From contig JAUHWC010000001.1 of the NCBI GenBank assembly GCA_030424845.1, positions 372,001-436,000 on the forward strand: a stretch of DNA of 64,000 bases. The letters are read 5' to 3'. Below, in pieces: positions 12,406 through 44,918 of the stretch. The translations under genes and the position numbers were made by a program. Positions within the stretch are counted from its first letter, which is position 1, and each line of letters starts with the position of its first letter. Source of the stretch: Alphaproteobacteria bacterium. GTDB lineage: Bacteria > Pseudomonadota > Alphaproteobacteria > Sphingomonadales > Sphingomonadaceae. Below the pieces are notes generated by a model. The model made no database searches. It was not told the origin of the DNA and was given only the letters and a program-made list of their open reading frames with translations.

Positions 12406-13137
12406 TTACAGCCCTTCTGCGGCCTGCATGGCCTTGCGCCGCAGCCGCGCCTCTGCCTGCATGTCGGCCAGGATGGTGCGCATGCGCATCAGCACGATCG
12501 CGCCGAACAAGAGGCTGAAACCGAGCGTCGCACCCAGCAGGGGATAAAGATAGACCGCGTCGATGGCGGAATTGCCCATTGTCAGGCTGGGCGGCTGGTG
12601 GAGCGAGTTCCACCACACGACAGATCGGTTGATGATCGGGATGTTGATCGCCCCGACCAGCCCGAAAATCGCCGCGATACGGCTGGAAGAACCTTCCTTC
12701 GCAAGGGCTGACGACAGGGCGATGTAGCCCAGGTAGAGGAACAGCAGCACCAGCATGGAGGTGAGCCTGCCGTCCCAGACCCACCACGTGCCCCAGGTCG
12801 GGCGCCCCCAGATGGAGCCGGTGGCAAGGCAGATGAAGGCAAAGACTGCTCCGGGAACCGCCGCAGCACGCGCGCCGATGGCGGCCAGCGGGTGCCGCCA
12901 GACCAGTTCGACCAGGCTGGCGATGGCAATCGTTGTCCAGCCGCCCATGCCCAGCCAGGCGGCGGGCACGTGGATGAAGAGGATCTTCACGCTGTCGCCC
13001 ATCAGCCTGTCCGGAGGGGCATTGAGGTAGCCCGGAACCAGCGAGACCAGGATCAGGACAACGCCACCCACCAGCAGGAGCGGGGTGAGCCATTTGGCAA
13101 GCCTCAGGAAGCGGGCGGGATTGGCGAAACCGTGCAT
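12406..13137 (-). CDS. ccmC: haem exporter membrane subunit CcmC
   Basis: An integral membrane protein (243 aa, six expected helices) that attaches haem to CcmE. The WWD haem-handling motif is visible around WGTWWVWDGRLTSML, and the family segment KILFIHVPAAWLGMG is near the N-terminus. The start at MHGFANPARF is chosen by comparison with family N-termini. An upstream in-frame ATG (13185) would add 16 unlikely polar residues. It opens the ccmCDE-F-G-H-I operon here. No ccmA or ccmB precedes it, so those subunits must be encoded elsewhere if present. Confidence 0.93.
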   Translation of the reverse strand: MHGFANPARFLRLAKWLTPLLLVGGVVLILVSLVPGYLNAPPDRLMGDSVKILFIHVPAAWLGMGGWTTIAIASLVELVWRHPLAAIGARAAAVPGAVFAFICLATGSIWGRPTWGTWWVWDGRLTSMLVLLFLYLGYIALSSALAKEGSSSRIAAIFGLVGAINIPIINRSVVWWNSLHQPPSLTMGNSAIDAVYLYPLLGATLGFSLLFGAIVLMRMRTILADMQAEARLRRKAMQAAEGL

Positions 13138-29380: not shown

Positions 29381-29408
29381 GCGGCGGTGGTGGCAGGGCT
29401 TGAATCGA
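29381..29408. repeat. left attachment-site-like repeat (tRNA-Tyr 3' end copy)
   Basis: GCGGTGGTGG followed by CAGGGCTTGAATCGAACC. This matches the 3' part of tRNA-Tyr at 44826-44854 in the same orientation, with one deleted base and two substitutions. It is too short and lacks the rest of a cloverleaf, so it is a displaced tRNA end and not a gene. Confidence 0.75.
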
Positions 29409-29463
29409 ACCGCAAAAATAACGCTTTGATATCAATCCTGTTCTTAGAACAAATGCAGGCCTT

Positions 29464-29483
29464 CCCCCACACTCTCCCCCACA
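29464..29483. repeat. left arm-type repeats CCCCCACA x2
   Basis: Two direct copies of CCCCCACA, 12 bases apart start to start, lie about 55 bases inside the left attachment repeat. The same octamer occurs four times beside the integrase start at the right end. They look like integrase or excisionase arm-binding sites (inference). Confidence 0.5.
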
Positions 29484-29615
29484 TTTTCGTTCATTTAACG
29501 GTGGTTCGGTTCAGCGTTTTGGTTAAAAAGCTGAATAAATGGGCGGTTCGCAGCGCTCCTGATCGCAACATAATGGCACGGTCTGACGCTGTCCAATACC
29601 GAGTTAGCGGCCTGG

Positions 29616-29810
29616 TCAATTCAACGCCCGATGCCGCTCCACTAGCTTATGCAAACTTGCTGTCGTGATGCGCGTCGCCTTACCAATCTTGATGGTTTCG
29701 AGTTCGCCGCTGGAGATCAATTCGTAGAGCTTCGTGCGCCCGACGCCGATCATGCGGGCGGCATCATTGACTCTGACGCAGAGCGGCTCGACAGGTTGCT
29801 GGCCGCTCAT
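29616..29810 (-). CDS. helix-turn-helix (excisionase/AlpA-like) DNA-binding protein
   Basis: A 64-aa protein with a MerR-like winged helix: CVRVNDAARMIGVGRTKLYELISSGELETIKIG is the pattern of the excisionase-family HTH_17 domain, with R..LHKLVERHR following. It overlaps the preceding AlpA gene by four bases. Such proteins act as recombination directionality factors or as activators of the integrase of tRNA-borne elements. Confidence 0.82.
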   Translation of the reverse strand: MSGQQPVEPLCVRVNDAARMIGVGRTKLYELISSGELETIKIGKATRITTASLHKLVERHRALN

Positions 29811-30013
29811 TCCGCCGGTTCCTCTTCACGATAGTGGGCAGGATCGGCGATCCAGCGATTGATGGCAGACTCGTGCCAGCCAGCACCATGTACGCTAATC
29901 TTCACCTGTGACGGGAAAGTGCCTTCAGCAATCTTGCGATAGATGGTGGAGCGGGAGAGACCGGTGCGGTCGAGCACGGTCTTCAGGCGGATAATGCGTT
30001 CTGTATTGGACAT
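29807..30013 (-). CDS. AlpA-family transcriptional regulator
   Basis: A 68-aa protein of the AlpA/prophage CP4-57 regulator family. IIRLKTVLDRTGLSRSTIYRKIAEGTFPSQVKI and a GWHESAINRWI tail are typical. It probably controls integrase expression or excision. It forms a two-gene unit with the HTH_17 gene. An inverted repeat immediately upstream may be its operator. Confidence 0.88.
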   Translation of the reverse strand: MSNTERIIRLKTVLDRTGLSRSTIYRKIAEGTFPSQVKISVHGAGWHESAINRWIADPAHYREEEPAE

Positions 30014-30370
30014 TGGGCGTTCTCACATTGACACTGCCAGCCCCTCTACGGAACATAATGAGAACTTTTTGCCGCAACGCAAGGGCCAGCTTGAGTTAGA
30101 ATTAGGTCAAATCTTCAACGATTTGCGCGACTTGAACCGCCTATGGACGGTCCGAGACCTTTACGGACAAACCGCTCCTTCGCCTGTGTTTCTCAGATTT
30201 TTTTCGTTCGACGCGATTTTGCGACTAGCACGCGCGAATTTGCGACATCAGCGACGGATTTCCGCGCCAACGATGCCCAAATGTGCGCTCTGATCGATTC
30301 GCCCCACCCCCGTCCGTCGCGAGAAGGCGCTTTGCCACCGTCGATATCGGACGAAACCAGGATCGCCAGA
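30014..30370. other. gene-free region upstream of the AlpA genes
   Basis: This 357-base stretch has one inverted repeat near its left end and poly-T/AT-rich runs around 30195-30215. I see no convincing gene. A frame on the minus strand (30193-30495) overlaps the PLD gene end and has no family resemblance. Confidence 0.5.
30019..30065. promoter_or_regulatory. inverted repeat, possible AlpA operator
   Basis: GTTCTCA at 30019-30025 and TGAGAAC at 30059-30065 form an inverted pair 33 bases apart, starting six bases upstream of the AlpA start codon. The flanks also match partly (GTTCTCAxxxTG on both arms). This spacing suits two bound regulator dimers or a loop. The role is inferred. Confidence 0.4.
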
Positions 30371-31459
30371 CTACTCGAATCCCCATTTTCGTGCACCAGC
30401 TCGGCTTTGCTCAACGCATTTTTCAGCCAACGTCTTGGCATATCGGCCTCTTCGCTCTGGCCGAACCTTGTAAGTGTCATCGTCGACGCGATCAAAGATC
30501 AGAATCGCTGGCCGAGGAATGTCGAGAATAGGACGAAGCCTCACTCGATGAGTATGGTTGTCAAAGTGAGTTAGGTTCGTCTCTATCGTTTCCTTTGGAA
30601 ATCGGAATTCGGCGGACTTAGTCTCATCAATTCCAACGCCAAAATATGCCGAGAGCGTGGCGACCGGGAGTTGCACTTGATATCCCGCACTACCAACATT
30701 TCCGCCGGTTTCATTCGCAAAAATTTGCAGATACAGCCTCGATGGCCTTTCCGAAATAGATGAAAGCTTAGAAAGGACTCTCGATTTCTTTGCGTTACTT
30801 TTGATCTTAAGGGCTTTTCGAAACAAGGGTTTGGGAGCGACCTTCGGTCCAACCTTCAATGCAGGCTTACGCCTGTTCCCGATCAACCCGTCATTTGGAT
30901 TTCTCTCTGAACCCGCTCTCTCCCCTTGCATAAGTTCACGAACTCGTTTGACCGTTACCGGCTCAGCGAGTTTCTTGAGTTCTTTCCAAGCAAAGCTCAC
31001 CCTCTTTTCAAAACGAGTGCCCCTCGCAGCTTGGACCTGAAGCGCCAGTTCAGTGTTTCGCAGCAAACCACCTCCGGTAAAATTTCCAGAACCGACAATT
31101 GAAACGTTTTTCCCACGGTACTGGAAATCAAACAGTTTCGGATGAAATATGGAATTACAATATTTATCCTCAACCATGTACGAAAACACCTGACCCGGAT
31201 GCAATTCCTCAAGATACAGTCCATACAAGAGACTGTCGGGAGTAGTTACCCCATTCCCTGCACCATATATAAATTCAAACTTTCCACCCCTCGAGAGGTG
31301 GGCTTCTAATTCTTCTGAAATAAGACCTATCCCATCCCACCTAGCGTACGCAGCAGCAACTCGCACAGCCTCCAAGTTTGGCTCTGCAAGGCAATTCTTA
31401 ATTGCCTTCAGAAGGTGCCCTGTCGCTTTATGCGATTGGATCAGGAGGTCGGTGCTCAT
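30371..31459 (-). CDS. phospholipase-D-superfamily nuclease-like protein
   Basis: A 362-aa protein with a single HKD site: FHPKLFDF (His106, Lys108, Asp111) followed by VGSGNFTGGGL (Gly123, Ser124, Asn126). One HKD motif per chain is the arrangement of dimeric PLD nucleases such as the BfiI/NgoFVII-type restriction enzymes. The C-terminal half (about 245-362) has a segment GYQVQLPVATLSAYFG and a basic tail, possibly a DNA-binding domain. It starts four bases after the large methyltransferase gene, so the two form one unit. GC is lower than in the chromosome. Its target and exact family are not determined. Confidence 0.72.
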   Translation of the reverse strand: MSTDLLIQSHKATGHLLKAIKNCLAEPNLEAVRVAAAYARWDGIGLISEELEAHLSRGGKFEFIYGAGNGVTTPDSLLYGLYLEELHPGQVFSYMVEDKYCNSIFHPKLFDFQYRGKNVSIVGSGNFTGGGLLRNTELALQVQAARGTRFEKRVSFAWKELKKLAEPVTVKRVRELMQGERAGSERNPNDGLIGNRRKPALKVGPKVAPKPLFRKALKIKSNAKKSRVLSKLSSISERPSRLYLQIFANETGGNVGSAGYQVQLPVATLSAYFGVGIDETKSAEFRFPKETIETNLTHFDNHTHRVRLRPILDIPRPAILIFDRVDDDTYKVRPERRGRYAKTLAEKCVEQSRAGARKWGFE

Positions 31460-31463
31460 AGTC

Positions 31464-34400
31464 CTAGCAGTCCTCGATTTGCGCATCGGGAATTCCGGCA
31501 ATCAACGCATTGATCCAAGCGAGACAAAGTCGTTGACTTCTGTACTCACCCCAAGTCGCAATTTCATTTTGCTCCTGAATTGAAAATGTGGAGTAGATAT
31601 ATCTAATATCATCACGAAAAGACCCATCAATCTGGGCATCTGCGATTCCGTATAGAATGAAATACAATGCATCGAGCTTCGCTCTTAAATAGAGACGCCT
31701 TTCTTCGCTCCATTCGAAAGGCGGCAAGACGTTGCCGTCACCGTCGACATAACCCATGTCTCGCGCAAAAGGTGCCATATCAGCGGCGGTATAGGTCAAT
31801 TCGAGAACTGCTTCGCGGATAATCTCAGCAGCGGATTTGTCGCCAAACCTACGCTCATAAGCCTCGATAGGTATCACTGGTAGTTGCTCGACGATAAACA
31901 GGTTAAGCGTCTGTCCCTGAATTTTTTGTCTAGTGACGAAATCAAAGGCAATCGAATTCAGATTTGACGCGAGTAGCCACTCGCAACGCTCGTCTCCTGT
32001 TGGAACAAAGATCGGCACCTTGTTACCAAAGCCGACTGCTGGAAAGATCGCGGATATCATGGTCCGAACGTTAGTTGGCGCGGTAATCTCCTTAAATCCT
32101 ACAACCCAGCCGAGCTCGGGTGAGCTGGTTTCGTTAGCGGGCACCCAGAACTGCGGATCTGGCAACCAACGTGGGTCTGAATGTTGCTCATTAGTTGCGG
32201 GCAACGGTTGAGCAGGTCGGTTCATATTTAGCGGGTTTACTATTATGCTTGCGGCTCGATGGTCGAAGGCCTGAACCATTTTTCCTTCATACAGTGGCAC
32301 CCATTCGCCGCCGGCCGATTGCCATCTATTTCCGCCGACTGGCCATGCCCCCTCTTTCTCTTCTAGTTCGGCACGTGTGCGGAATAGGTGGCTGTCATTG
32401 GTCATGTGAAACATAGTGCGATAGCGCACTGGCCATGCCGCCACCTCACCTTGACCACTCCTGTCCACCAGTACAGGGAAGCGAGCATATATCGCCGTAG
32501 TCAGCTCCTGATCGCGCCGGTTGCGGAAGATCGGTGCTGTTCCAGTGTTTGGATTGACCCGCGCAAAATCCGCAGAGGTCATTGCAAAAGTGCGCTCATC
32601 GTTCAGGATTTCTGAGGTTGCTTGAAGGAAGAAACCACATTCTGCGACCTCAAATTCGCGCTTGGGGCTGGCTATCATCGCCGTAAACTTGAACCGGCTG
32701 TCTACGTCGGGGAAAAACGGATCAAGTCGGTAGCGAGTTCGCCGGTTCTCAAAATCGTAAAGTGACTTGAGGTGCCCACCGGTCGCCAATGCGCTGAAGA
32801 ACGAGCTTGCCGAAAGATCGCTGGCGATGCCGCTTGGTGTGAGAAGACCTACCATACCGCCTGCATCCACGCTTCCTTGTCGTACCAGCGAGTGCCCGCG
32901 TTCAACGAATAAACTGTAGAGATTTACATCACCCCTGCCCAACTGCGGATAATTGCCACCATCCTGTCGCTTTGCACGAGCCATACGCAATGCGTCCATC
33001 GCTCGCGCATCCGCCCGCTCATATTCTGCAAACAGTGGATCATCCGCTACTTTCAAAGCCGCAATCATTTTCTTTCGGTCAGAGGCGCGGGTCGAAAGTG
33101 CGATTTCAGGTTTGCGCGCGGCAAACCACTCGACCTGTTGCAGCTTGATGCGGTCCCAGGGCGGATTGCCGACAATCGCATCGAAGCCGCCCTTGCGCTC
33201 TGCACTCGCCCAATCCTGCCAGACACCGGGAAACGCAATCTGCCAGTTGAGGAAGCGTTCTTCCTCGATCAGTTGTCGCGCATCGCGCCAGATTTCTTTG
33301 AAGGCCTCGACCTCTTCGGCCTTGGCCTTGCCGCTTTCCGGTTCCTTTCGACCGCGCGCGATGGGGATCGGGTCGCCGAACCGTCCGTCCAACCATAGAC
33401 GCACCAGACCTTTGCCGTCCTTGTCGAGATTGAGCCAATCGAGTGCGTGCATGAAGCTGACAAAGCCATCCAGCTCCCCAGTCATCAGTTCGACATCTTC
33501 CCACATCGCGGCGGAACGATGGGCTTCGGCAATCTCGGCGTCAGTAAGCGCTTCGATGGTCTTCATCGCCTCGGCACTGCGTTGGGCATTGCGCAGTGCG
33601 TCGTTCCACAGCAGTCCGCCGCCCAATGCCTCAGCTTTGTCGATGGCATCGCGCACCCATAGGCCGAACAGGCTGTCACCACATCGCAGGTGGTGGTCGA
33701 TGAAGGAGAGTGGCGCGCCAACCGTAAAAGTGTGCAGCCACAGTGCCACCTTGGCGAGTTCCACCGCCATCGGGTTCTTGTCCACGCCATAGACGCAACG
33801 CTTTAAGACCATACGGCGAACAATGTGCCGATCATCAAGCTGGGCCTCGTCGATGGTCCAGCCTTCCTCCCGTGCATTCTTCAGGATGGTGCGGCGGATT
33901 TCGCCGATCCGGTCGGCCAGCGGGCTGGCATAATCATGCCCAGCCTGTTCCGCCCCGGCAGCAGCTTCCGCCATTGCTTCAAGCACCTTGTCGGCCATGA
34001 GATCAACGAGGCTGACAAGGAAGTGGCCTGACCCCATCGCCGGGTCGCAAACGCGCAAACGGAGGATGGCTTGCGCGGGATCGGCCTCGCCAAGTTCTGC
34101 GCGGATGTAATCTTCCGCATCGCCATTCTTGATCCGGCCTATCGCCGCTGCGAAGCCCGCATTGGCATCCAGGAAAAGCGGTTCCAGCGTCTTCTCAAGG
34201 ATCAGAGTAACCAATTCGTCCGGCGTGTAGTAGCTGCCGCTGTTCTTGCGAGCGAAGGCATTCGGGCGGACGGCGATAGCGCCATCTTCACGAACCACTT
34301 CATGCTCCAGCAGGCGCTCGTAAATGGAGCCGAGTTGCTGCACGGTGAGGTCGCGATAATTGATGTAGCGCCGGTCGCTGCCCTCGCGCTCGAAAGACAG

Positions 34401-35576
34401 CTTATCGATGACAGGTGCGAGCACACTGTCGGGCAATCGAATCTGATCGAGCAGTGGCGTATTGGCGGGGGCAAACAGACCGCCGTTGTAGGGCGGAATA
34501 CCGATGGAGGCATCGCCGCGATCAACGATGCGCGACAGATCAGCGATGCGGTTCCAGATTTGCGATGCGCTGGTCGAAAATGCATCACCGCGTCCCATGC
34601 GATCACCCACTTCAAGGCGCTTGGGGCGCAGTGCGTAGTCGTCATAGCCTTCCGAATTGACCGGCAGCAGATCGCGGTCTTCGGCGTAAAGCAGGAACAG
34701 CAGACGATAGAGCAGAACGAGCGAAGCGTCCCGAACTTCCTCCAGCGGTGTCTCCGGTGAAGCGCCCGCAACGGCAGCGGTCAGTGCAGGGAAGATGTCT
34801 TCGAAGACGAGCTTCGAGAGCGACTTGGCAACGCGCTCTTCGTAGAACGCCGCCTCTGCCCGCGCCCGTTCGTGGAAAGACCGGCCATCGGCTCCGGTCC
34901 TGTCAAAGGCCGTGCGCGAAAAGATTGCGGCGAAGACCCGCAATGCATGGTCACGAGCCTCATCATCGACGCCGAGTTCACTCTGCGCGTCTAGAGCCAG
35001 CGCGCCTGCGAGATCGACTTCGAGGAACTCCTCGCTGACCGAGCGCGCACCAGCCCAATAGAGCCGCCAGCGCGAGCCGTTGCTGAGAATGCCCCAGCGC
35101 AAGCCATGCTCGCTGTTGTCACCGATCCGGCGAAGGTAACGCAGCATCTGCGTCGACGGCGCGACCGCATCCTCGCGTCCCACTGCGCGGTCGAGCGGCC
35201 TCGCCCAGCGCTTACTTTCGACCACAGCCGCACCGTGCTCGTAACGCCGCCATTCTTCGGGCTGTGAATTGGCACGATCCTTTGCATCGCTATCGATGAA
35301 CAACAGGCCATCGGGAACGTCCAGCCTGCCACCAGCGGAAAGGTTCTGTTGCCTCAGGCTCTCGGACCAGCCCAGTTCAGCAAGGATCGGCCAGATGAAA
35401 TCGTCTTCGGTCTGGCTTTCGTTTGGCGACGATTCGCGCGGGAAGCGATCAGCGATTGCGGTCAACGATGCGCGCAACGCAGCGACATCAACCGCCCGAT
35501 ATTCGGTCGATTGCCAGATGGCTTCTTCAAGGTAATCAGTCGTTAGGAACGATCCGGCGAACAATTGCATCGGCAT
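31464..35576 (-). CDS. nuclease-adenine methyltransferase fusion (type IIG-like, Eco57I-type MTase)
   Basis: A 1,370-aa protein that appears to join restriction and modification. Residues 57-122 look like a PD-(D/E)xK nuclease: Glu57, then RLDVPD (Asp86, Asp89) and VVESK (Glu120, Lys122). The methyltransferase has SAM motif DPAMGSGHF at 511-519, GVDKNPMAVELAKVALWLH near 597-615, and the catalytic N6-adenine motif NPPW at 804-807. The roughly 560 C-terminal residues would hold target recognition and helical regions; their DNA is visibly more AT-rich. No translocase is present. BREX PglX or DISARM DrmMI homology is possible, but none of their partners are here. Confidence 0.82.
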   Translation of the reverse strand: MPMQLFAGSFLTTDYLEEAIWQSTEYRAVDVAALRASLTAIADRFPRESSPNESQTEDDFIWPILAELGWSESLRQQNLSAGGRLDVPDGLLFIDSDAKDRANSQPEEWRRYEHGAAVVESKRWARPLDRAVGREDAVAPSTQMLRYLRRIGDNSEHGLRWGILSNGSRWRLYWAGARSVSEEFLEVDLAGALALDAQSELGVDDEARDHALRVFAAIFSRTAFDRTGADGRSFHERARAEAAFYEERVAKSLSKLVFEDIFPALTAAVAGASPETPLEEVRDASLVLLYRLLFLLYAEDRDLLPVNSEGYDDYALRPKRLEVGDRMGRGDAFSTSASQIWNRIADLSRIVDRGDASIGIPPYNGGLFAPANTPLLDQIRLPDSVLAPVIDKLSFEREGSDRRYINYRDLTVQQLGSIYERLLEHEVVREDGAIAVRPNAFARKNSGSYYTPDELVTLILEKTLEPLFLDANAGFAAAIGRIKNGDAEDYIRAELGEADPAQAILRLRVCDPAMGSGHFLVSLVDLMADKVLEAMAEAAAGAEQAGHDYASPLADRIGEIRRTILKNAREEGWTIDEAQLDDRHIVRRMVLKRCVYGVDKNPMAVELAKVALWLHTFTVGAPLSFIDHHLRCGDSLFGLWVRDAIDKAEALGGGLLWNDALRNAQRSAEAMKTIEALTDAEIAEAHRSAAMWEDVELMTGELDGFVSFMHALDWLNLDKDGKGLVRLWLDGRFGDPIPIARGRKEPESGKAKAEEVEAFKEIWRDARQLIEEERFLNWQIAFPGVWQDWASAERKGGFDAIVGNPPWDRIKLQQVEWFAARKPEIALSTRASDRKKMIAALKVADDPLFAEYERADARAMDALRMARAKRQDGGNYPQLGRGDVNLYSLFVERGHSLVRQGSVDAGGMVGLLTPSGIASDLSASSFFSALATGGHLKSLYDFENRRTRYRLDPFFPDVDSRFKFTAMIASPKREFEVAECGFFLQATSEILNDERTFAMTSADFARVNPNTGTAPIFRNRRDQELTTAIYARFPVLVDRSGQGEVAAWPVRYRTMFHMTNDSHLFRTRAELEEKEGAWPVGGNRWQSAGGEWVPLYEGKMVQAFDHRAASIIVNPLNMNRPAQPLPATNEQHSDPRWLPDPQFWVPANETSSPELGWVVGFKEITAPTNVRTMISAIFPAVGFGNKVPIFVPTGDERCEWLLASNLNSIAFDFVTRQKIQGQTLNLFIVEQLPVIPIEAYERRFGDKSAAEIIREAVLELTYTAADMAPFARDMGYVDGDGNVLPPFEWSEERRLYLRAKLDALYFILYGIADAQIDGSFRDDIRYIYSTFSIQEQNEIATWGEYRSQRLCLAWINALIAGIPDAQIEDC

Positions 35577-35619
35577 TGACTAGCAGCCAATCAAGAACCG
35601 TTCCACGAATAGCTTTGCG

Positions 35620-35865
35620 CTATCCCAAGGATGGTTTGTCTTTTGCCAGTTCAGCCTCAAACGCCCGCTTACCCTTGCGTCGGAACAGCACCAGCGCCTG
35701 CGCGCCATCAGGCCCTCGCAGCTTTGCGGCGACTGTGAGGAATGCGCCGTAGAGCGCGGCGCGATCATCATCGGTCAGCTCGACAAGATCGGCCTTGGCG
35801 ACCAGGCCGCCCAGCTCGATCAGTTGCCGGGTTCGTTCACGGCGTTTGACCTGCCATTCGCGCAT
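35620..35865 (-). CDS. traD: small mobilization protein TraD (Ti-type)
   Basis: An 81-aa protein reading MREWQVKRRERTRQLIELGG, then LVELTDDDRAALYGAFL. This matches the short Ti-plasmid-type TraD found beside traA relaxases, which is unrelated to the F-plasmid TraD coupling ATPase. The start given leaves 22 bases after traC; the frame is open further upstream but lacks a family-like sequence there. The gene ends 43 bases before the methyltransferase start. Confidence 0.75.
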   Translation of the reverse strand: MREWQVKRRERTRQLIELGGLVAKADLVELTDDDRAALYGAFLTVAAKLRGPDGAQALVLFRRKGKRAFEAELAKDKPSLG

Positions 35866-35887
35866 ATCGGTTCGTGCCTTCGCCGCC

Positions 35888-36193
35888 TCAAGCCGATGCC
35901 GCGCCGCCGTCGAGCGGGAGAGTGCTTTCCTGCTGCTGGCGAGGTCCGCTCGGAATGTTGCGTGACTTTCCCTGAAAGAAGGCCGCGCCGCGCTTGCGCC
36001 AACCCTCCCCGATTGCCTTATCGGTGTTGGCGACAGCGTCGAGCAGTGCGCCCGCCAGGACATCGGCATCGAGCGAGTCGGCTCCTGTTGCCGTGACCAG
36101 CGCGCCAAGGTCGCGCACGCGGCGTTCCTTCAACTGCTTTGCCTTGTCCGCAAGCGCCTTCAGTTCCGAATCAAAATCGCGGGGTTTGCGCAT
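35888..36193 (-). CDS. traC: conjugal transfer protein TraC (Ti-type)
   Basis: A 101-aa protein beginning MRKPRDFDSELKALADKAKQLKERRV, with a DLGALVTATGADSLDADVLAGALL core. This is the Ti-type TraC pattern, a relaxosome accessory protein. It is divergent from traA, and the oriT-like site sits between them, as on Ti plasmids. The charged N-terminal helix probably contacts DNA. Confidence 0.78.
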   Translation of the reverse strand: MRKPRDFDSELKALADKAKQLKERRVRDLGALVTATGADSLDADVLAGALLDAVANTDKAIGEGWRKRGAAFFQGKSRNIPSGPRQQQESTLPLDGGAASA

Positions 36194-36309
36194 CTGTTGT
36201 CTCCATCGTTGGTGTGATGGAGAGATGATAATCAGTGAGCTTTCCCAATGCAGTAAGGTCGCCGGGACAGTGTGATACCGCCTAGTCCCGATCAGGATTT
36301 TATCATGAG

Positions 36310-36337
36310 AGGGCGCGCTTATACGTCGTGCCGACGT
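36310..36337. other. oriT-like site (RSF1010/Ti type)
   Basis: An inverted repeat ACGTCG-TGC-CGACGT (36323-36337) lies next to AGGGCGCGCTTAT (36310-36322). On the minus strand this reads hairpin, ATAAGCG, CGCCCT, which closely resembles the RSF1010-family nick region TAAGTG^CGCCCT. By analogy the nick would be on the minus strand between 36316 and 36315. It lies in the divergent traC-traA gap, where MOBQ oriTs are expected. Confidence 0.7.
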
Positions 36338-36366
36338 TGCGTTTGCGGTGTAACTGGATTGCCATC

Positions 36367-39252
36367 ATGGCAATCTTTCACTTCAGCGCAAAGGTCATCG
36401 GAAGGTCGAGCGGACGCAGTGCCGTGGCGGCAGCAGCCTATCGCGCGGGCGAACGGTTGCACGATAAGCGGATCGACCGCGACCATGACTTCACGAACAA
36501 GGCAGGCGTCCTCCACTCTGAAGTGATGCTGCCGAAAGACGCGCCCGAAGCCTTCGCGGACCGGGCTACCTTGTGGAATGCGGTCGAGACCGCCGAGAAG
36601 CGTAAGGATGCCCAGCTCGCCCGCGAGGTCGAGTTCGCTCTGCCCCGCGAGCTGACCAAGAAGGACAACATCAGGCTGGCTCGCGAGTTCGTGAAGTCCG
36701 AGTTCGTCGAGAAGGGCATGATCGGCGATCTCAATGTCCATTTGGATATAGGCGAGGACGGCAAGGCCAAGCCCCACGCCCATGTCATGCTGACGATGCG
36801 CGAAGTGACCAAGGACGGCTTTGGCGCGAAGGTCCGCGACTGGAACAAGACCGCGCTGATCGAAAAATGGCGCGAGCGCTGGGCCGACCATGTCAACCTC
36901 GCGCTGGCACAACGCGACATCGATTCACGGATCGATCATCGTAGCCTTGAAGCGCAGGGGATTGCGCTGGAGCCGCAGGACAAGATCGGTCCCGCAGCTT
37001 CGCGCATTGGCGGGCGCGGGCTGGAAGCCGAGCGAATTGAAGAACACCGTGCGATTGCCCAGCGCAATGGCGCGCGCATAATCGCCAATCCCTCGCTGGC
37101 CTTGGATTCGATCACGCACCAGCAGGCCACCTTCACCAGGCGCGACCTTGCCGCCTTTGTTCACCGGCACAGCGACGGGAAGGAGCAGTTCGACGCGGCC
37201 TACAATGCGGTGCGCAGTTCCGCCGATATGATCGCCCTGGGCACGGACGGACGCGGGCAGGATCGCTTCACTTCGCGGGCGATGATCGAGACCGAACAGC
37301 GCCTGCATCGCGCCGCCGACACGATGGCAAAGCGCAAGGGTCACGCCGTCAATGATGTGCAGCGAAACGCCGCTTTCGCCAATGCTGCGAAGCGCGGCTT
37401 AGTACTCTCCGGCGAGCAGAAGTCCGCCTTCGAGCATGTGACCAACAGCAAGGGCCTTACTATTGTCGTTGGCTATGCCGGGACCGGCAAAAGCGCGATG
37501 CTTGGCGTTGCGCGCGAGGCTTGGGAAGGCGCGGGCTACACTGTGCGTGGCGCAGCACTTTCCGGTATTGCCGCCGAAGGGCTGGAGAACGGCTCTGGCA
37601 TCGCATCACGCACCATCGCCAGCCTTGAGCATCAATGGGGCAAAGGACGCGAACAGCTCACGTCCCGCGATGTGCTTGTTATCGACGAGGCGGGCATGGT
37701 CGGCACGCGCCAGATGGAGCGCGTACTGTCCCATGCCGCGAAGGCCGGGGCGAAGGTTGTTCTGGTGGGCGACCAGCAGCAGTTGCAGGCCATCGAGGCA
37801 GGCGCAGCCTTCCGGGCAATTCACGAGCGCCACGGCGGCGTCGAGATCAGCGAAGTCCGCCGCCAGCTTTCCGCATGGCAGCAAGACGCGACCAGGCACC
37901 TCGCCACGGGCCGTACCGGCGAAGCAATCGGCACCTATGAAGAGCGCGGGATGGTCCATGCCGCCGATACGCGCGAGGCTGCGCGCGCTGACCTGATCCT
38001 GCGTTGGAATCAGGAACGACAGGACAGCCCCGGCGACAGCCGGATCATCCTTACGCACACCAATGACGAGGTGCGCGAGCTGAACCAGATGGCGCGCGGA
38101 AAGATGCGCGAAGCTGGCGCACTAGGTGGCGATGCCACGATCAAGACGGCACGCGGCGAACGGCAGTTTGCGTCAGGCGACCGCATCATCTTCCTGCGCA
38201 ACGAACGAGGGCTTGGGGTGAAGAACGGGACACTCGGCACGGTCGCAATGGCCAGCGCCCAGAGCATGGCGGTGCGCACCGACGATGGCCGCGAGGTCGC
38301 TTTTGACACGAAGGACTATGCCCATATCGATCATGGCTACGCGGCCACAGTCCACAAGGCGCAAGGCATGACCGTGGACCGCACACATGTGCTCGCCACA
38401 CCGGGAATGGACAGCCATTCCGCCTACGTCGCCATGTCGCGCCACCGCGACGGGCTGGCGCTGCACTATGCCCGCAATGACTTCGCCGATCAGTCAAGAC
38501 TTGTCCGCACCCTGAGCCGCGAGCGCGGGAAGGACATGGCGGGCGACTACAAGCCCGAGCAGACCTTCGCCGAACTGCGAGGGATCAGCTTTCGCAAACG
38601 GATCATCGAGATGGTTCGGCAGGTGCCGGAACGCGCCAAATCCATCTTCGGAAACTTCCGTCCGCAAGCGCGCCAGCTTGAGCCAATCCCAGTGCAGGCG
38701 AACACGCAGAACGAGCAGCGCCGTGCGGTCGAACGCTACGCCCGTGCGCTTGGCGATATCGGCACGATGCAGGCCCAGGGTTTGCCCGTCCTCCCGCACC
38801 AGAAGGACGCGCTGGAGAAGGCGGGTAAGGCGCTCGATACGATCCGCCCCCATGCGGCCAATGATCTTGCCAAAGCGCTGGAGCGGCATCCGGAGCTGAT
38901 CGCTGAGGCCGCTGGCGGGCGCAGCCAGGAAGCCTTGCGCGCCATGCAGGACGAAGCTGCCGTGCGCACCGATCCGGCGCTGCGAACCGAGCGTTTTGTC
39001 AGCGACTGGCAGGGGCTGAGCGCAGCGCGCAAGCAGCTTGAGCAGCAAGGTGACCGCGCAGGCGCAGCCCGCGTGTCGGCAAAGCTGACCGAGCTGGCAA
39101 AAGGGCTTGAACGCGATCCGCAGGTCGAAAGTCTGCTGCGCGGCAAGACCCGCGAACTCGGCATCGATCCGAAGCCCGAACGCAACATCGCAAACGAACT
39201 CACCGCAACTCTCACACGCGAACGCACCCGTGCTTTCGACATGGGCATTTAG
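36367..39252 (+). CDS. traA: Ti-type conjugative relaxase/helicase TraA
   Basis: A 961-aa relaxase of the MobA/MobL (MOBQ) class. The N-terminal HUH relaxase (1-250) has the candidate nicking tyrosine Tyr25 in AAAAYRAGE and metal-binding histidines in NVHLD (His125) and PHAHV (His137, His139). A RecD-like SF1 helicase follows: Walker A GYAGTGKS at 369-376, DEAG, and motif HGYAATVHKAQGMT. The C-terminal 230 residues are helical. The start is MAIFHFSAKV, the family N-terminus. DUF6118 follows after ten bases. GC is close to that of the chromosome, unlike the defence cargo. Confidence 0.93.
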   Translation: MAIFHFSAKVIGRSSGRSAVAAAAYRAGERLHDKRIDRDHDFTNKAGVLHSEVMLPKDAPEAFADRATLWNAVETAEKRKDAQLAREVEFALPRELTKKDNIRLAREFVKSEFVEKGMIGDLNVHLDIGEDGKAKPHAHVMLTMREVTKDGFGAKVRDWNKTALIEKWRERWADHVNLALAQRDIDSRIDHRSLEAQGIALEPQDKIGPAASRIGGRGLEAERIEEHRAIAQRNGARIIANPSLALDSITHQQATFTRRDLAAFVHRHSDGKEQFDAAYNAVRSSADMIALGTDGRGQDRFTSRAMIETEQRLHRAADTMAKRKGHAVNDVQRNAAFANAAKRGLVLSGEQKSAFEHVTNSKGLTIVVGYAGTGKSAMLGVAREAWEGAGYTVRGAALSGIAAEGLENGSGIASRTIASLEHQWGKGREQLTSRDVLVIDEAGMVGTRQMERVLSHAAKAGAKVVLVGDQQQLQAIEAGAAFRAIHERHGGVEISEVRRQLSAWQQDATRHLATGRTGEAIGTYEERGMVHAADTREAARADLILRWNQERQDSPGDSRIILTHTNDEVRELNQMARGKMREAGALGGDATIKTARGERQFASGDRIIFLRNERGLGVKNGTLGTVAMASAQSMAVRTDDGREVAFDTKDYAHIDHGYAATVHKAQGMTVDRTHVLATPGMDSHSAYVAMSRHRDGLALHYARNDFADQSRLVRTLSRERGKDMAGDYKPEQTFAELRGISFRKRIIEMVRQVPERAKSIFGNFRPQARQLEPIPVQANTQNEQRRAVERYARALGDIGTMQAQGLPVLPHQKDALEKAGKALDTIRPHAANDLAKALERHPELIAEAAGGRSQEALRAMQDEAAVRTDPALRTERFVSDWQGLSAARKQLEQQGDRAGAARVSAKLTELAKGLERDPQVESLLRGKTRELGIDPKPERNIANELTATLTRERTRAFDMGI

Positions 39253-39262
39253 GAGAAACGAC

Positions 39263-40015
39263 ATGGAAGACGACCAAATCGAAGAAGTGCAACTGGACCT
39301 CGATGTCGATGAACCGCCAGCGCCACAACCAGAGGCTGTTATAGAGACCGATCCGGCGACGGAGGCCTTCGCCCGTCTCGAAGGCGAAATGGCGATGGTG
39401 CGCCACACGGTCCAGAACATTGCCAGGGAGCGAGCCGACATCGTGATCCCGGACTACACCGCCACGCTCGGACAGATGGCCGATCAGCTGGCAACGGTCT
39501 CCAAAACGTTGAGCACAATCGGGAGCAAGCCTGCCATCGAGCTAACGCCGGAAGATATCGCGGTTCAGATCAAGCGCGCCTCGCTCGACATGCAGCGCGA
39601 TGCCAGCGACCTGTTCCGGCAGGGCCGCAAAGACCTGGACAATGCAAGCGGTCGTCTCGTTACAATTGTCGGGCGGGTCCGCACCGAGGCCGAGCAAAAG
39701 CGCCAGACCTGGCGCTTTGCAGGCCTGGGGTTGGCTGCCGGTATCCTGCTATGGTCGATCCTCCCCGGCACTATCGCTCGCGCTATGCCCGAATCTTGGC
39801 ATTGGCCCGAACGGATGGCTCGCAAAGCTGTTGGCGAGCCTACCATAGTCGAGGCGGGTATCCAATTGATCCGGTCACAGAATCCGGAGGCGTGGGAAGA
39901 ATTGGCGGAGGCGCAGAGCGTTCTGAGCGAAAACCAGGAAGTCATAGAGCGCTGCAAGGAGCGGGCACGGGTGGCAGAACGTTCAACCAGTTGTTCGATC
40001 CAAATCAAGCCATGA
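39263..40015 (+). CDS. DUF6118 family protein
   Basis: A 250-aa protein with an acidic N-terminus, a long coiled-coil region (about 35-155, with IPDYTATLGQMADQL), one membrane helix (about 157-176) and a C-terminal tail ending in RSTSCSIQIKP. It matches DUF6118 proteins that often follow traA in sphingomonad elements. It has an excellent AGGAGA ribosome binding site. The function is unknown; a role at the membrane during transfer would be a guess. It ends tail to tail with the HerA gene. Confidence 0.72.
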   Translation: MEDDQIEEVQLDLDVDEPPAPQPEAVIETDPATEAFARLEGEMAMVRHTVQNIARERADIVIPDYTATLGQMADQLATVSKTLSTIGSKPAIELTPEDIAVQIKRASLDMQRDASDLFRQGRKDLDNASGRLVTIVGRVRTEAEQKRQTWRFAGLGLAAGILLWSILPGTIARAMPESWHWPERMARKAVGEPTIVEAGIQLIRSQNPEAWEELAEAQSVLSENQEVIERCKERARVAERSTSCSIQIKP

Positions 40016-40032
40016 TGAAATTGCCGCCGGAT

Positions 40033-42024
40033 TCAATAGGGATCGTTCGGCAACCGAATTTCAGCGATACAACCGTCCTCGTGAAACCATAAGTCGCGAA
40101 CTTTTGTATCGTCACTCTTAGGCAGCGGTGCTGCATCTCTCACGGCAAAGGTAGTGGGTAAATTGACTGCCGTACCAAACACAAGCGCATTTTGCTTGGG
40201 CAATGAAGGCAAGCGTTTCAAGACCGACTCGGAGATGAATGGTGTCATCTGACGAATTTGCGACAAATCGTCAGGATTTTGAATACGATGAATGACGAAG
40301 TTGGAGCACTGTGACAGTACGGTCTTTGATAGCTCACTAGGCCTTTGGGACGCGGCTAAGAGGAACAAACCATACTTTCGCCCTTCCTTCGCAATGCGTT
40401 CGTAAATTCGGCTTGCATCGATTGAGTATCGTGACGGTCTCTCTGCTATGTATCGATGAGCTTCCTCAAGAAGGAGATGCACCGGAAATCGATTTCGGGG
40501 ATCAGCTATTCTAAGCAGGCGAAAAGTCATTCGAGCAACGACTGACGCGACCAGTTCCACAACCTCATCTTCGACCGCATTCATGTCCAAGATTATGATC
40601 TGGTTCTTCTTGATCCAGTCGTCGCCCTGCCTATCAAGCCCCAAGATTTCGCCGAGGAAGCTGCTCATCGTTGGGGGGGTATCTTCCGGGTCTAGATCAT
40701 ACCGAAGGAAAGCATACTCGCTGCGTTCCTTCAGCGACTTAAACCTCGTCATCATTTGTGAGCAGTAGTCACGAATTTGGCGATTGCCGTGTGCCTCCTC
40801 GTAAAGGATTGCAAAATCTAGACACTCATCAAGGTCATCAAATGTGAACGGCGTGTTATCGTATGAAGGAAGCTCAACATCTTCGCGCAGTTTCTCTCGG
40901 ACTTCGTCTAGGAATCCCTCCAAGTTACTTCCCGGAACAAAGTTACCGTACTGATAGTTAGCCCCGTACTTTTGCAGCAGCTCCATGTTGAGGTCATCAG
41001 TTGGATAGTGCTGGAAAAGTGACACCACCCTCTGAAACTTGGAAACTGGAGAGTCGCCGTCGGACCCGCGGAAACACTCTAGCACGCAGGTCGCAATAAA
41101 GTGCTCTCTGACCTCTCGTGCTTCATCGCTATCTTGACGGAGCAGGCTCGTCAGCCCCAAAGCCATACGAAGAACGGGTATTTGCGTTCGCTCGCTAGCT
41201 TGCAGCAGCAACTCCCATTCGGATTGTTCGAGAAACCAATGAGGAAGCCTAAACCTGTCTGCGCACGCGGTGCCGTCAAGGACGACTCGTTCGACGCCGA
41301 TACCATTTGTTGCTCCTAGCGGTGCGAGCGCCTGTTCGTACTCCCCATTAACGTCAAGCACGACGAATGTCGCACCACGGGCTTGGTGCTCGTCAGCCTT
41401 CTCAAAAAGCGACTGCAACACGGACGCTACAGTGCAAGATTTGCCACTTCCGGTATTTCCCAGAACTGCCGTATGTCCGCCGAAAAAATCATCGATCCGG
41501 ACCTTTACGTCATAGCCTTCGAATACAACGGATTTGCCGATAGTCAGAGCGCGAAAGCGCGTCGGATCGGACGGAAGAGCCGGTTGCCCTGAGGATGCCG
41601 GGACATACTCAATGGGCATGTCTGTCTCGAAAATTCGATCAAGCTCCGCATCGAGAGCATAGAGGGCATCGGCGTATAGCGACGGAAAAATGGAGACGCC
41701 AAAGCGAAATTTTTGTGCGGGATTTTGCGGAAGCATGCCTACCGGCACGACATCCAGAAATTTCGCTGACGCTGCTTTATCAAAGTCACCGTCGTATCGG
41801 CCAGAACTCGCCGGATCACGCTCTCGTAGCCCCACGACTTCTACAACGACGTACTCGGCCTGCACCGGAATGATGAGAAATGAACCCAATCGCGCAACAT
41901 AGTGTAGGTCGTCGAAACCGACGACCGTGAAGCTGTCGGTCCGGCCATGCATTTCAATGACAAAACGGTCTGCTGCGACAGATATTACAGAGCCGATTGT
42001 TCGACGCCGATCATCAGTCGTCAT
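40033..42024 (-). CDS. herA: HerA-type ATPase of a SIR2-HerA defence system
   Basis: A 663-aa hexameric-type DNA translocase. An N-terminal HAS-barrel region (about 8-85) precedes the RecA-like domain with Walker A GNTGSGKS at 189-196 and Walker B IIILDMN. Further marks are LLLEEAHRYIAERPS and RYGLFLLAASQRPSEL, which match HerA/FtsK-like ATPases (DUF87). It starts inside the end of the SIR2 gene (11-base overlap). In described SIR2-HerA systems HerA assembles with SIR2 and activates NAD depletion when phage is sensed. GC is low for this genome. Confidence 0.9.
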   Translation of the reverse strand: MTTDDRRRTIGSVISVAADRFVIEMHGRTDSFTVVGFDDLHYVARLGSFLIIPVQAEYVVVEVVGLRERDPASSGRYDGDFDKAASAKFLDVVPVGMLPQNPAQKFRFGVSIFPSLYADALYALDAELDRIFETDMPIEYVPASSGQPALPSDPTRFRALTIGKSVVFEGYDVKVRIDDFFGGHTAVLGNTGSGKSCTVASVLQSLFEKADEHQARGATFVVLDVNGEYEQALAPLGATNGIGVERVVLDGTACADRFRLPHWFLEQSEWELLLQASERTQIPVLRMALGLTSLLRQDSDEAREVREHFIATCVLECFRGSDGDSPVSKFQRVVSLFQHYPTDDLNMELLQKYGANYQYGNFVPGSNLEGFLDEVREKLREDVELPSYDNTPFTFDDLDECLDFAILYEEAHGNRQIRDYCSQMMTRFKSLKERSEYAFLRYDLDPEDTPPTMSSFLGEILGLDRQGDDWIKKNQIIILDMNAVEDEVVELVASVVARMTFRLLRIADPRNRFPVHLLLEEAHRYIAERPSRYSIDASRIYERIAKEGRKYGLFLLAASQRPSELSKTVLSQCSNFVIHRIQNPDDLSQIRQMTPFISESVLKRLPSLPKQNALVFGTAVNLPTTFAVRDAAPLPKSDDTKVRDLWFHEDGCIAEIRLPNDPY

Positions 42025-43345
42025 TGGTTGATGCCTCGCCTGCGCTTTCTCTCGAACTCATAGTCTGGAGGACTAGCTTCACAGCATCGTCAATCCGGTC
42101 GGATGGGCGACGAGGAAGGAGATGCTCAACAATTGTGCTAAAGTAATGGGCCGGAGCTTGGCCATCAGGCCCAGGTCCACCGATGAACCAAATCCGAGGG
42201 TCTCGCAATGACCTCAATTTGGCGATCTCACCCTCTGCCTCAGGATCAGCGAAAACAATAAGACGGAACGTCGGGATCGTCAGCGCTTGATAGATTATGT
42301 TGTTTATGTGCTCATCGCCAAAGGCATATCCCATCGTGATGAGAACGCTCTGTTCACGTACAATACGAGATTGAAACTCGCGGAAGAGATCTGAGTACGG
42401 CGAACCTAGACTAGAATTTTGCTTCGCCGGTGTCGGAAAAATCATTACTTTAGATGGGGCGGATTGCGGCCACGTCTCGCGGATCGGAAAGAGGCCATGA
42501 TTATCTTCCGTCCAACTGATCGAACCGTGGAGCTTGCAGAGGTAAACGAAGCCGTCGACCGCAGACCACTTTCTATTCGAGATATCTAGTTGCTCAGCAA
42601 GCGCATATCGAAACGTCGCTGGGTTAAAGCGGCGCTCCACCACACCAGAGAATCCGTTCGAGTAGGGCAGCCCAAGACGGTCCATGGCGGTCTCATTGAA
42701 AAGATCATAATTGGTCGTGAAAATCCAAGGCCTGGGCAGTGATCGATCACGAAGCACGAGCCGACGATAGAAGGACTGATAGAGGGAAAGAACACTTTCG
42801 TCGCCAGTCGAGAACTCGCCCTCTGTGCATTTTTCCCAAAAGAACGCCTGAACCTTTGCGATCATGGATTCGACCAAAGAAACTTCTTCTTCGTCTCCCT
42901 GATCGTCACTGCGGCTCAGGACGAACCTAAGCGCGAACAAGGTCTCCATTAGTCGTTCAAGATTCCGACCATACTCCCCGTCCAACGACAACCCGTGGCC
43001 AGCCAAGAGGGCTAATTCTTTGGCATTGAATGCCCAATGTCCAACCTCATTTTCATTCTCATCGCTGGCATTTGAGGCGGTGCAAAATTCTTTGGCCAAC
43101 GGGCCCATCGTTGCAATTCCGCGCTCTACCTTGTCATCGAGTACAAGCGAAGAGCATCCAGCGCCGAGAAGAAATGCAACGTTTCGAGCACCCAGAGCCT
43201 CCGATAGAGATTTACGCACCAATTCTGGTCCGTCTACCCAATCCAGTGGCTGGGACGATTGTTCATCTGCGCGAATGAATGAGAATTGCTTTTGTGCATT
43301 GGATTGCGAATTCGCGCTGTCATCATCGTAAGGCATCGAAGACAT
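42014..43345 (-). CDS. SIR2-domain protein of a SIR2-HerA defence system
   Basis: A 443-aa SIR2-family NAD-binding protein. The NAD loop is FLLGAGCSS (residues 58-66); the conserved catalytic residues are in FTTNYD (Asn212, Asp214) and CKLHGS (His273), so NADase activity is likely retained. The C-terminal section VLITMGYAFGDEHINNIIY is typical of defence SIR2 proteins. It is the promoter-proximal gene of the pair with herA. Three N-terminal residues could be dropped in favour of a second ATG. Acting by abortive infection is inferred from the family. Confidence 0.9.
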   Translation of the reverse strand: MSSMPYDDDSANSQSNAQKQFSFIRADEQSSQPLDWVDGPELVRKSLSEALGARNVAFLLGAGCSSLVLDDKVERGIATMGPLAKEFCTASNASDENENEVGHWAFNAKELALLAGHGLSLDGEYGRNLERLMETLFALRFVLSRSDDQGDEEEVSLVESMIAKVQAFFWEKCTEGEFSTGDESVLSLYQSFYRRLVLRDRSLPRPWIFTTNYDLFNETAMDRLGLPYSNGFSGVVERRFNPATFRYALAEQLDISNRKWSAVDGFVYLCKLHGSISWTEDNHGLFPIRETWPQSAPSKVMIFPTPAKQNSSLGSPYSDLFREFQSRIVREQSVLITMGYAFGDEHINNIIYQALTIPTFRLIVFADPEAEGEIAKLRSLRDPRIWFIGGPGPDGQAPAHYFSTIVEHLLPRRPSDRIDDAVKLVLQTMSSRESAGEASTNDD

Positions 43346-43411
43346 GAAGGCCCCCCTCCACTACAATGCTAGAGCGAGTCTGCTGAAGCGCAACATTGTT
43401 TGGCAGTAAAC

Positions 43412-44632
43412 TTACGAACCGATCCCTGCCTGTTCCTGCATTCGATCAGGAGCCGAATGGCCAGAACAAAAAACTCCCCACGCTTCCATCAGCTTCACCC
43501 GCGCACCCGGATTCTCAGGCGTGCCGAGATAGGTAGTGCGGCGATAAGCGGCCTGCACAGCATCCGGCGTTTTGTGCGCCAGTGCAGCTTCGACAACCGC
43601 ATTGGGGAAGCCCTCGTTCGCAGCCCAGTCGGTAAAGCTGGAGCGAAAGCCGTGGACGTGGAAAGGCTCCTGCATATCGCGCATAACCTTCAGCAGTGTC
43701 ATGTTGGACATCGCCTTGCCGGTCATGCCGGGGAAGACCACTTCGGCTCCCTCCATCTGCATTGCCTCGGCCCTCACAAGAACCGCCATCGCCGCTTCTG
43801 ACAGCGGCACGATGTGCGCCCTACTGCGCTTCATATGCTCGGCGGGGATTGTCCAAAGGCGCTGGTCCAGATCGAATTCGTCCCACTTCGCGAGCCGCAC
43901 TTCCTGCGAGCGAACGCCTGTCAGAATGAGGAGGTCCAGCGCCAGACGCGAATAGGATGGCTTGCGCCGCAATGCGGTCAGGAATGACGGAACGGCCACG
44001 TATGGCATTGCCTTGCGGTTGGCCGGTTTCTTGATCTGTCGAGGCAGCCCTCGCCCCGCTTTCAGACTGCTGTTGCCCGATGGAGCCTCTGTAGAGCGCC
44101 AACCCTTGGCGTGGGAGTAGTCAAGCACGGCGCAAATCCGGTTGCGTACCTGACGAGCTGTTTCCGGAATTTCCTGCCAGATCGGGGTGAGCACCCCGAT
44201 AATGTCGGCAGCGGTGATCCCGCCAGTCGTCATGTCGCCGAGCGTCGGGAAAGCGTAGTTTTCCAGACTGGCCAGCCACTGGCGACCATAGACATCGCTT
44301 TTCCAGCCAGCCTCGTTCTCCGAATGATATTGGGTGGCGGCTTCTCGGAAGGTGACCTTGGCGGCTTCCTCGTCTTTGCGCTCCGTCAGTACGTCGCGCT
44401 TCTCGACCTTTACCGCCTTGCGGAGTTCGGCGGCTTTCGCCCGCGCCTCGGCCAGCGTCACCAGCTTTGCGCTGCCCACACCGATATCCCGTCGCTTGCC
44501 ATCCTGCTGGAGTCGCAAATTCCAATAGGCACCGCCGCGTTTGTCCACTTTCAGGAATAATCCGTCACCATCTTGATAGGTGCCCGGATTCGCCAAGGCT
44601 GCCTTGACCGCTACCGCTGTGAGTTTACCCAT
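43412..44632 (-). CDS. int: tyrosine-type site-specific integrase (P4-like)
   Basis: A 406-aa phage integrase with an N-terminal DUF4102-like arm-binding domain (KLTAVAVKAALANPGTYQDGDGLFLKV), a core-binding SAM-like domain and a C-terminal catalytic domain. Catalytic residues are visible: Arg in LTGVRSQEVRL, HGFR for the His-x-x-Arg pair, LAHKTPDAVQAAYRR for the second His and the nucleophilic Tyr. The start at MGKLTAVAV is chosen over a longer frame. It lies next to tRNA-Tyr, the presumed target, with arm-type repeats upstream of its start. Confidence 0.95.
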   Translation of the reverse strand: MGKLTAVAVKAALANPGTYQDGDGLFLKVDKRGGAYWNLRLQQDGKRRDIGVGSAKLVTLAEARAKAAELRKAVKVEKRDVLTERKDEEAAKVTFREAATQYHSENEAGWKSDVYGRQWLASLENYAFPTLGDMTTGGITAADIIGVLTPIWQEIPETARQVRNRICAVLDYSHAKGWRSTEAPSGNSSLKAGRGLPRQIKKPANRKAMPYVAVPSFLTALRRKPSYSRLALDLLILTGVRSQEVRLAKWDEFDLDQRLWTIPAEHMKRSRAHIVPLSEAAMAVLVRAEAMQMEGAEVVFPGMTGKAMSNMTLLKVMRDMQEPFHVHGFRSSFTDWAANEGFPNAVVEAALAHKTPDAVQAAYRRTTYLGTPENPGARVKLMEAWGVFCSGHSAPDRMQEQAGIGS

Positions 44633-44639
44633 TGCTCTA

Positions 44640-44715
44640 CCCCCACATTTTTCGGGACCGAGTTGCGAAACCAAAGTGTGGGGGTAAGCCACTTTACCCC
44701 CACATTACCCCCACA
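44640..44715. repeat. right arm-type repeats CCCCCACA x4
   Basis: CCCCCACA occurs at 44640-44647, 44697-44704 and 44708-44715, and inverted at 44677-44684. Two of them extend to TACCCCCACACTT plus GGTT and face each other. They lie in the integrase upstream region, between its start and tRNA-Tyr, and match the two copies at the left end. They are likely arm sites for integrase and/or autoregulatory sites. Confidence 0.55.
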
Positions 44716-44825
44716 CTTGGTTCCGGCTGCAGGCAAATTGCAGCGGTCAAATGCGGACAGTGAGGGCGATAATACCCTTGGTTTTCTGCGATTTCTAGGG
44801 CTTTTCGGGGATGTTCTGAGAAAGG

Positions 44826-44854
44826 GCGGTGGTGGACAGGGCTGGATTCGAACC
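44826..44854. repeat. right attachment-site repeat (within tRNA-Tyr 3' end)
   Basis: GCGGTGGTGG then ACAGGGCTGGATTCGAACC, covering the T-arm and acceptor 3' strand of tRNA-Tyr plus five bases beyond. It pairs with the left repeat in direct orientation, which is how integration at a tRNA 3' end leaves an intact gene on one side and a displaced end on the other. Confidence 0.75.
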
Positions 44855-44918
44855 AGCGTACGCTTGCGCGGGCAGATTTACAGTCTGCTGCCTTTAACCA
44901 CTCGGCCACCTGTCCACC
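44830..44918 (-). tRNA. tRNA-Tyr (GTA)
   Basis: The minus strand folds with acceptor GGTGGAC/GTCCACC, a D-arm containing GGTTAAAGGC, anticodon stem GCAGA-CTGTAAA-TCTGC (anticodon GTA), a long variable arm as expected for class II tRNA-Tyr, and T-loop TTCGAAT. The discriminator base is A and a full CCA is not encoded. It is the integration target of the element to its left. Confidence 0.95.

Follow-up and report, generated by a model that had tools for sequence, protein, structure and literature searches.

BfiI is a Type IIS restriction endonuclease in which a phospholipase D (PLD) nuclease domain with a single HKD site is followed by a B3 DNA-recognition domain. It cleaves site-specifically, without metal, as a dimer (PMC4081073), and does so without a partner protein of the kind that R.CglI and R.NgoAVII, also PLD-B3 proteins, need for cutting (PMC4267653). 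Type IIG enzymes depend on AdoMet to cleave and to methylate, both at one site. They use one reading module for both cutting and marking, and their specificity is hence widely changeable (PMC4081073). Both kinds are well described in these two sources. The locus reported here, in a 64,000-nucleotide stretch of a Sphingomonadaceae contig (JAUHWC010000001.1, positions 372,001 to 436,000; hereafter the window), places a Type IIG-like methyltransferase (MTase) directly upstream of a predicted PLD-B3 endonuclease. In the relatives that we compared, the PLD gene occurs with only one version of the target recognition domain (TRD) of the MTase, which we call TRD-A. We lean towards the explanation that the two genes encode a restriction-modification unit with two nucleases, in which the PLD enzyme would cut the site that TRD-A protects. 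In a search of open-licence PMC papers (subscription journals and REBASE were outside its scope), neither the combination of a Type IIG-like enzyme with a PLD-B3 endonuclease nor carriage locked to a TRD was found described.

Domain make-up of the two proteins

A first-pass annotation made from the letters alone had proposed a 1,370-residue open reading frame (ORF) followed after four bases by a PLD gene. This layout is borne out: positions 31460-31463 separate the MTase stop from the PLD ATG, and Glu120/Lys122 (VVESKRW), NPPW (804-807) and His106/Lys108 (FHPKL) lie where it had placed them. An alternative TTG start would give a PLD protein of 376 instead of 362 residues. Among Pfam families the MTase matches Eco57I (1.6e-19) and also N6_Mtase. 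Among PADLOC models the top score goes to the DrmMI models (8e-84), whose strongest stretch, residues 430-807, falls in the methylase core, and REase_MTase_IIG (2.6e-53) spans a longer part of the protein, residues 32-1066. Searched by sequence against PDB chains, the MTase had no match at E 0.01. Its N-terminus is PD-(D/E)xK-like, as judged from the motif and the IIG model; D89, E120 and K122 are present in all six PLD-bearing relatives that cover this region and in most PLD-less ones, and are altered in L100 and L103 (L numbers denote the compared loci). By its sequence, the MTase appears to unite on a single chain a nuclease domain, an N6-adenine MTase and a variable C-terminal specificity segment, which is the plan of Type IIG enzymes of the Eco57I/MmeI kind. 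Its close relatives also differ in the TRD, as described for Type IIG enzymes (PMC4081073). The difference lies in the neighbour, since the available part of that review tells of separate accompanying MTases and of no accompanying endonuclease.

The best PDB match of the PLD protein is BfiI (2c1l, 3zi5), whether by sequence, by whole-chain Foldseek or with the C-terminal half, and R.NgoAVII ranks second by Foldseek. The protein begins with a PLD nuclease domain that has a single HxK...N...E site and ends with a B3 DNA-recognition domain. For this B3 half, the matching domain is one with a crystal structure in complex with its cognate DNA. Sequence and modelled fold together identify it as a predicted BfiI-like PLD-B3 restriction endonuclease, in line with the earlier suggestion of a second nuclease. 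The domain plan and order are identical to those of BfiI. The differences are that structural alignments give only 12-17% identity, that the partner here is a Type IIG-like enzyme equipped with a nuclease domain, and that the PLD gene is carried optionally. The CglI/NgoAVII systems, composed of a PLD-B3 endonuclease, a helicase-like ATPase and an MTase, resemble the locus in that the PLD-B3 endonuclease adjoins a methyltransferase (PMC4267653, in part). PF10593 had no match in the genome of the window; its control was positive in one of 14 genomes, Corynebacterium glutamicum. On Salipiger pTPRO3 (L020) and in L074, a PLD protein about 22% identical over its length lies beside Eco57I and N6_N4 methylases, but these have another Pfam make-up than the MTase described here.

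An Eco57I-type methylase next to a PLD gene also recalls class 1 DISARM (DrmMI, DrmC). The hallmarks of DISARM are a drmB-type gene with an MZB/DUF1998 domain, drmA and drmD, and that of BREX is PglZ. The pair could be what is left of such a locus, a DrmMI/PglX-like methylase with a leftover DrmC-like PLD gene; the DrmMI match is strong, and the PLD protein scores best, although weakly, with the DrmC model of PADLOC (1.6e-4). We regard this as extremely improbable. In the genome of the window (2.83 Mb, 99.86% complete) neither MZB/DUF1998 (PF09369; control positive in 8 of 14 genomes) nor PglZ (PF08665; control positive in 2 of 14) was matched, in agreement with the earlier remark that the usual BREX and DISARM partners are absent. 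The annotations around L017, L018, L019 and L081, which include unnamed hypothetical proteins, name no such partner, and the PLD protein, with its B3 half, is closer in fold to BfiI. It is also very improbable that the PLD protein cuts modified DNA in a Type IV-like manner while the MTase serves a separate restriction-modification function. The likeness to SauUSI on which this could be based is confined to the PLD half (model residues 1-179), and pairing with an adenine methylase disfavours a nuclease that attacks the product of that methylase. Moreover, B3 domains like that of BfiI, to which the recognition half belongs, read unmodified sequence.

Table 1. Features of the window and genes found 3' of the MTase in related loci
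Feature	Position	Strand	Basis or remark
Type IIG-like restriction-methyltransferase (MTase), 1,370 aa, ATG start	31464..35576	-	ORF; Pfam and PADLOC matches
PD-(D/E)xK motif region of MTase, residues 84-124 (D89, E120, K122)	35205..35327	-	residue comparison
MTase motif I DPAMGSG, residues 511-517	34026..34046	-	D511, G515, G517 retained in every covering row
MTase motif IV NPPW, residues 804-807	33156..33167	-	kept in 34/34 rows
Putative TRD of MTase (TRD-A), residues 1081-1235	31872..32336	-	position and variability; one type in all PLD-bearing rows
MTase C-terminal segment, residues 1240-1370	31467..31859	-	divergence relative to core, PLD-bearing vs PLD-less
BfiI-like PLD-B3 endonuclease (predicted), 362 aa from ATG	30371..31459	-	sequence, alignment and Foldseek
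PLD active-site stretch, residues 106-137 (H106-x-K108, N126, E137)	31049..31144	-	invariant in alignments
B3-like DNA-recognition domain, C-terminal in PLD protein, residues 215-362	30374..30817	-	
Integrative mobilizable element carrying the pair	29383..44915	.	degenerate att-like copy to tRNA-Tyr
Degenerate att-like copy	29383-29412		similarity judged by eye
Two small helix-turn-helix-like ORFs, between PLD gene and att-like end	29616-30013	-	
SIR2 and HerA genes	40033-43345	-	PADLOC 1.7e-219 (SIR2), 2.3e-297 (HerA)
Tyrosine integrase	43412-44692		Pfam
tRNA-Tyr	44830-44915		
L026 (Tabrizicola plasmid): MTase interrupted by IS5 transposase, then SIR2, then HerA directly 3'	4504-12879		
L061, L063: PDC-S14/DUF4357 protein 3' of MTase			weak GIY-YIG match in one
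L024: GHKL-type ATPase 3' of MTase			
L096: HEPN_LA2681 protein 3' of MTase			
L062: 130-aa protein 3' of MTase			weak mad1 match

Occurrence of the pair and its link to the TRD

With the PLD protein as query, 13 of 396 genomes of the same order were matched; outside the genome of the window, identity was only 24-47%, in stretches that lie mostly in the PLD core. In the class search, 9 of 385 genomes gave stretches of a similar kind, at 30-40% identity. Full-length relatives were found in four plasmid records (Pannonibacter and three near-identical Sinorhizobium) and, in genome contigs, in Sphingopyxis KK2 (65%) and in Nitratireductor, Ahrensia and Devosia metagenome-assembled genomes (47-48%). 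In all nine full-length cases (the window, L017-L019, L081 and L077-L080) the PLD gene is the immediate 3' neighbour of the MTase, with gaps of 3-6 nt, which excludes a chance neighbourhood. The cases form four lineages: the Sinorhizobium loci L018, L019 and L081 are near-copies of one another, and L017 forms a close group with L078-L080. The MTase is truncated in L019 and L078, by the start of the record or a contig edge, and frameshifted in L018. That the two genes form a pair, as first proposed, is thus supported by its conservation across four lineages.

The MTase itself matched 18 of the 396 genomes of the order at E <= 1e-150, 12 at full length (the own genome and 11 others at 55-78% identity) and six over roughly the N-terminal half. 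None of these 11 other genomes is among the 13 matched by the PLD query. The class search added relatives (11 of 385 genomes, own included), as did nine plasmid records with 80% cover, the viral contigs L092 and L103 and other orders (L109, L113). On L092 (5170-11119), the MTase relative (61%) adjoins the gene, on the opposite strand, for the large subunit of a terminase, and by this gene content the MTase chassis is probably borne there by a phage-like contig. The MTases of L093 and L094 are 98-99% identical up to residue 900 and just 67% identical in 1081-1235, most probably a recent TRD exchange.

For comparison of the MTases we used a set of 34 rows, 7 PLD-bearing and 27 PLD-less. The following were dropped from the counts: L050-L056 (regions L068-L071, L089, L091, L102), which match only about the N-terminal half, L027, L098 (broken reading frame), L112 (contig of equal length and same gene as L025), and L018 and L019, which are near-copies of L081 with a frameshifted or truncated MTase. 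Trees additionally leave out the distant rows L099, L100 and L103, pair averages and segment ranks also L025 and L022, and the seven-segment comparison also L097 and L026. Four incomplete rows were kept: L078 (C-terminal part), L022 (downstream ORF of a broken gene), L026 (ORF after the insertion sequence) and L097 (ORF from about residue 140). When the four PLD lineages are compared with 14 PLD-less rows, likeness within the group hardly exceeds that between groups up to about residue 900, and is slightly raised at 901-1020 and 1051-1110. In windows from 1081 to 1230, identity is 0.61-0.72 within the PLD lineages versus 0.33-0.46 to the PLD-less rows. Identity to the window in segment 1081-1235 splits the 34 rows with a clean gap, 13 rows at 58% or more and 21 at 49% or less. 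PLD genes accompany 7 of the 13 TRD-A-type rows and none of the 21 others (one-sided Fisher 3.2e-4, uncorrected for descent), or 4 of 10 versus 0 of 20 with near-copies collapsed (7.7e-3, likewise uncorrected). In all six pairs of PLD-bearing lineages the TRD is conserved at least as well as the core. Three N-terminal sister pairs differ jointly in TRD and PLD, and in an independent-pairs sign test 3-4 of 4 pairs agree in direction and none is opposed.

A changed TRD with loss of the PLD gene, a kept TRD without it and a kept TRD with it were all seen; a different TRD together with a PLD gene was found in none of the 34 rows. This is the pattern to be expected if the PLD enzyme cuts a site that TRD-A protects, and the occurrence of the PLD gene in this sample with TRD-A only points to the same target for both proteins. 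The earlier proposals that the PLD partner may cut different DNA or act as a separate effector are not supported, since the protein is BfiI-like by sequence and fold and its gene was found with one TRD version only.

Several points weigh against the two-nuclease unit. The data contain just four PLD-bearing lineages, and the sign test is unable to reach 0.05. Six PLD-less rows share the TRD-A type, and the impression that TRD-A never occurs without the PLD gene was wrong. With all tree rows, the PLD label takes 4 changes on the N-terminal, TRD and C-terminal trees alike. Shuffles reached as low a number in 20, 6 and 4 of 500 trials, respectively, a result partly driven by near-copies, so that the label is clustered on all three trees and the TRD does not stand out. 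With near-copies collapsed, it is clustered on none of the three (200/200 shuffles as low). A smaller row set had favoured the TRD (3 changes, 0/500 shuffles, versus 4 changes and 38/500 for the N-terminal tree), and in the larger set the TRD is set apart by clade membership alone. The structure models of the PLD protein were built on five sequences and have a mean predicted local distance difference test score of 64 and 70. Finally, in L018 (Sinorhizobium K101) the MTase frame is broken at a short G-run (about 8516-8673) and the PLD gene is intact. If the frameshift is real, an active, independent nuclease for the same site should have killed the host. It could reflect phase variation or a homopolymer assembly error; near-identical M103 and the available part of C101 are in frame at this G-run.

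The C-terminal segment and a possible mechanism

Of seven MTase segments, residues 1240-1370 alone differ in the PLD-bearing rows (nominal p 2e-4), as compared with p 0.10-0.74 for the six others, including the nuclease domain. Relative to the core, the four PLD-bearing lineages are the lowest of 26 rows (22 PLD-less; nominal p 6.7e-5), and in plain identity PLD-less L097 is even lower. Mean identity in the segment is 60% among the PLD-bearing lineages versus 70-73% among the other rows. Either constraint is relaxed in the presence of a second nuclease, or the segment is a contact site of the two proteins. The latter would suit an arrangement in which the PLD protein docks on the site-finding large enzyme, with the B3 half as a helper and with the docking surface behind both the association with TRD-A and the unusual C-terminus. 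Such dependence has precedents in R.CglI and R.NgoAVII (PMC4267653, in part), and an intact PLD gene beside a broken MTase frame, as in K101, would be tolerated. However, a common docking surface should be shared by the PLD-bearing lineages, which are less alike here, the B3 half has its counterpart in a domain crystallised with its cognate DNA, and BfiI cuts without a partner of this kind. We consider docking doubtful.

The same segment bears on whether the PLD gene merely travels with TRD-A through its nearness to the MTase 3' end, which would not require a shared site. The window and L057 have a DNA identity of about 0.8 up to codon ~840 and then diverge through the gene end. The C-terminal tree places the window with L077 and L022, apart from L057, the result expected of a block that came from an L077-like donor. 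Together, these two observations make a block exchange possible for the window, with the PLD gene perhaps acquired in one piece with the 3' part of the MTase gene. Against such passive transfer, the segment that lies between TRD and PLD gene is not more alike in PLD-bearing rows. The C-terminal tree also mixes, with modest support, PLD-bearing and PLD-less rows: L077 pairs with PLD-less L022 (support 96/91), and PLD-less L023 is a near neighbour of the L080 group (weak support). The TRD of the PLD-bearing rows is, in addition, conserved beyond the core. We judge this explanation improbable.

Under the two-nuclease unit that we favour, the large enzyme would mark and cut its own site. The PLD half of the small endonuclease would act as a dimer, because each chain has one HKD site, and its B3 half would read the site methylated by the TRD-A version of the large enzyme. 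Host DNA would be protected from both nucleases and unmarked DNA would be cut by both. Carriage of the PLD gene would then lock specificity: its loss would be harmless, and a change of TRD with the gene kept would be lethal. If this is true, a second, independently reading endonuclease should abolish the freedom of specificity change of Type IIG enzymes, and it would be clear why a single-chain nuclease-methylase retains an adjoining gene for a second nuclease. The empty combination and the conserved TRD fit the idea that a toxin-like second nuclease locks the evolution of DNA specificity. The family also offers a natural presence/absence series of PLD-B3 proteins that is useful for finding the recognition site.

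The 3' slot and the mobile element

In 6 of the 27 PLD-less rows the MTase stop is directly followed by another gene in the same orientation (Table 1); start codons of these neighbours follow a mechanical ORF rule (at least 90 or at least 60 aa) or the record annotation. As the slot holds SIR2-HerA, DUF4357, HEPN and GHKL genes in relatives, the Type IIG enzyme could be a hub for swappable defences. It is a tentative proposal, possible rather than probable, that a Type IIG chassis recruits a second endonuclease that is optional, matched in specificity and unrelated in fold. The PLD-B3 protein would in this case double the attack on unmarked DNA, with metal-free beside Mg-dependent chemistry, and would freeze an otherwise fast-changing TRD. 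The S14 proteins of L061 and L063 are 79% identical and both tied to one TRD group.

In the window, the pair is carried by an integrative mobilizable element whose gene order, from the integrase, is SIR2 and HerA, DUF6118, TraA/MobQ relaxase, TraD, MTase, PLD and two small ORFs, tentatively labelled AlpA-like. The att-like copy at its end is not among the 20 listed of 43 repeat families. The SIR2-HerA genes are, by their PADLOC matches, a predicted second defence system on this element. The surrounding housekeeping genes look alphaproteobacterial. The two small ORFs next to the att-like end are possibly excision regulators.
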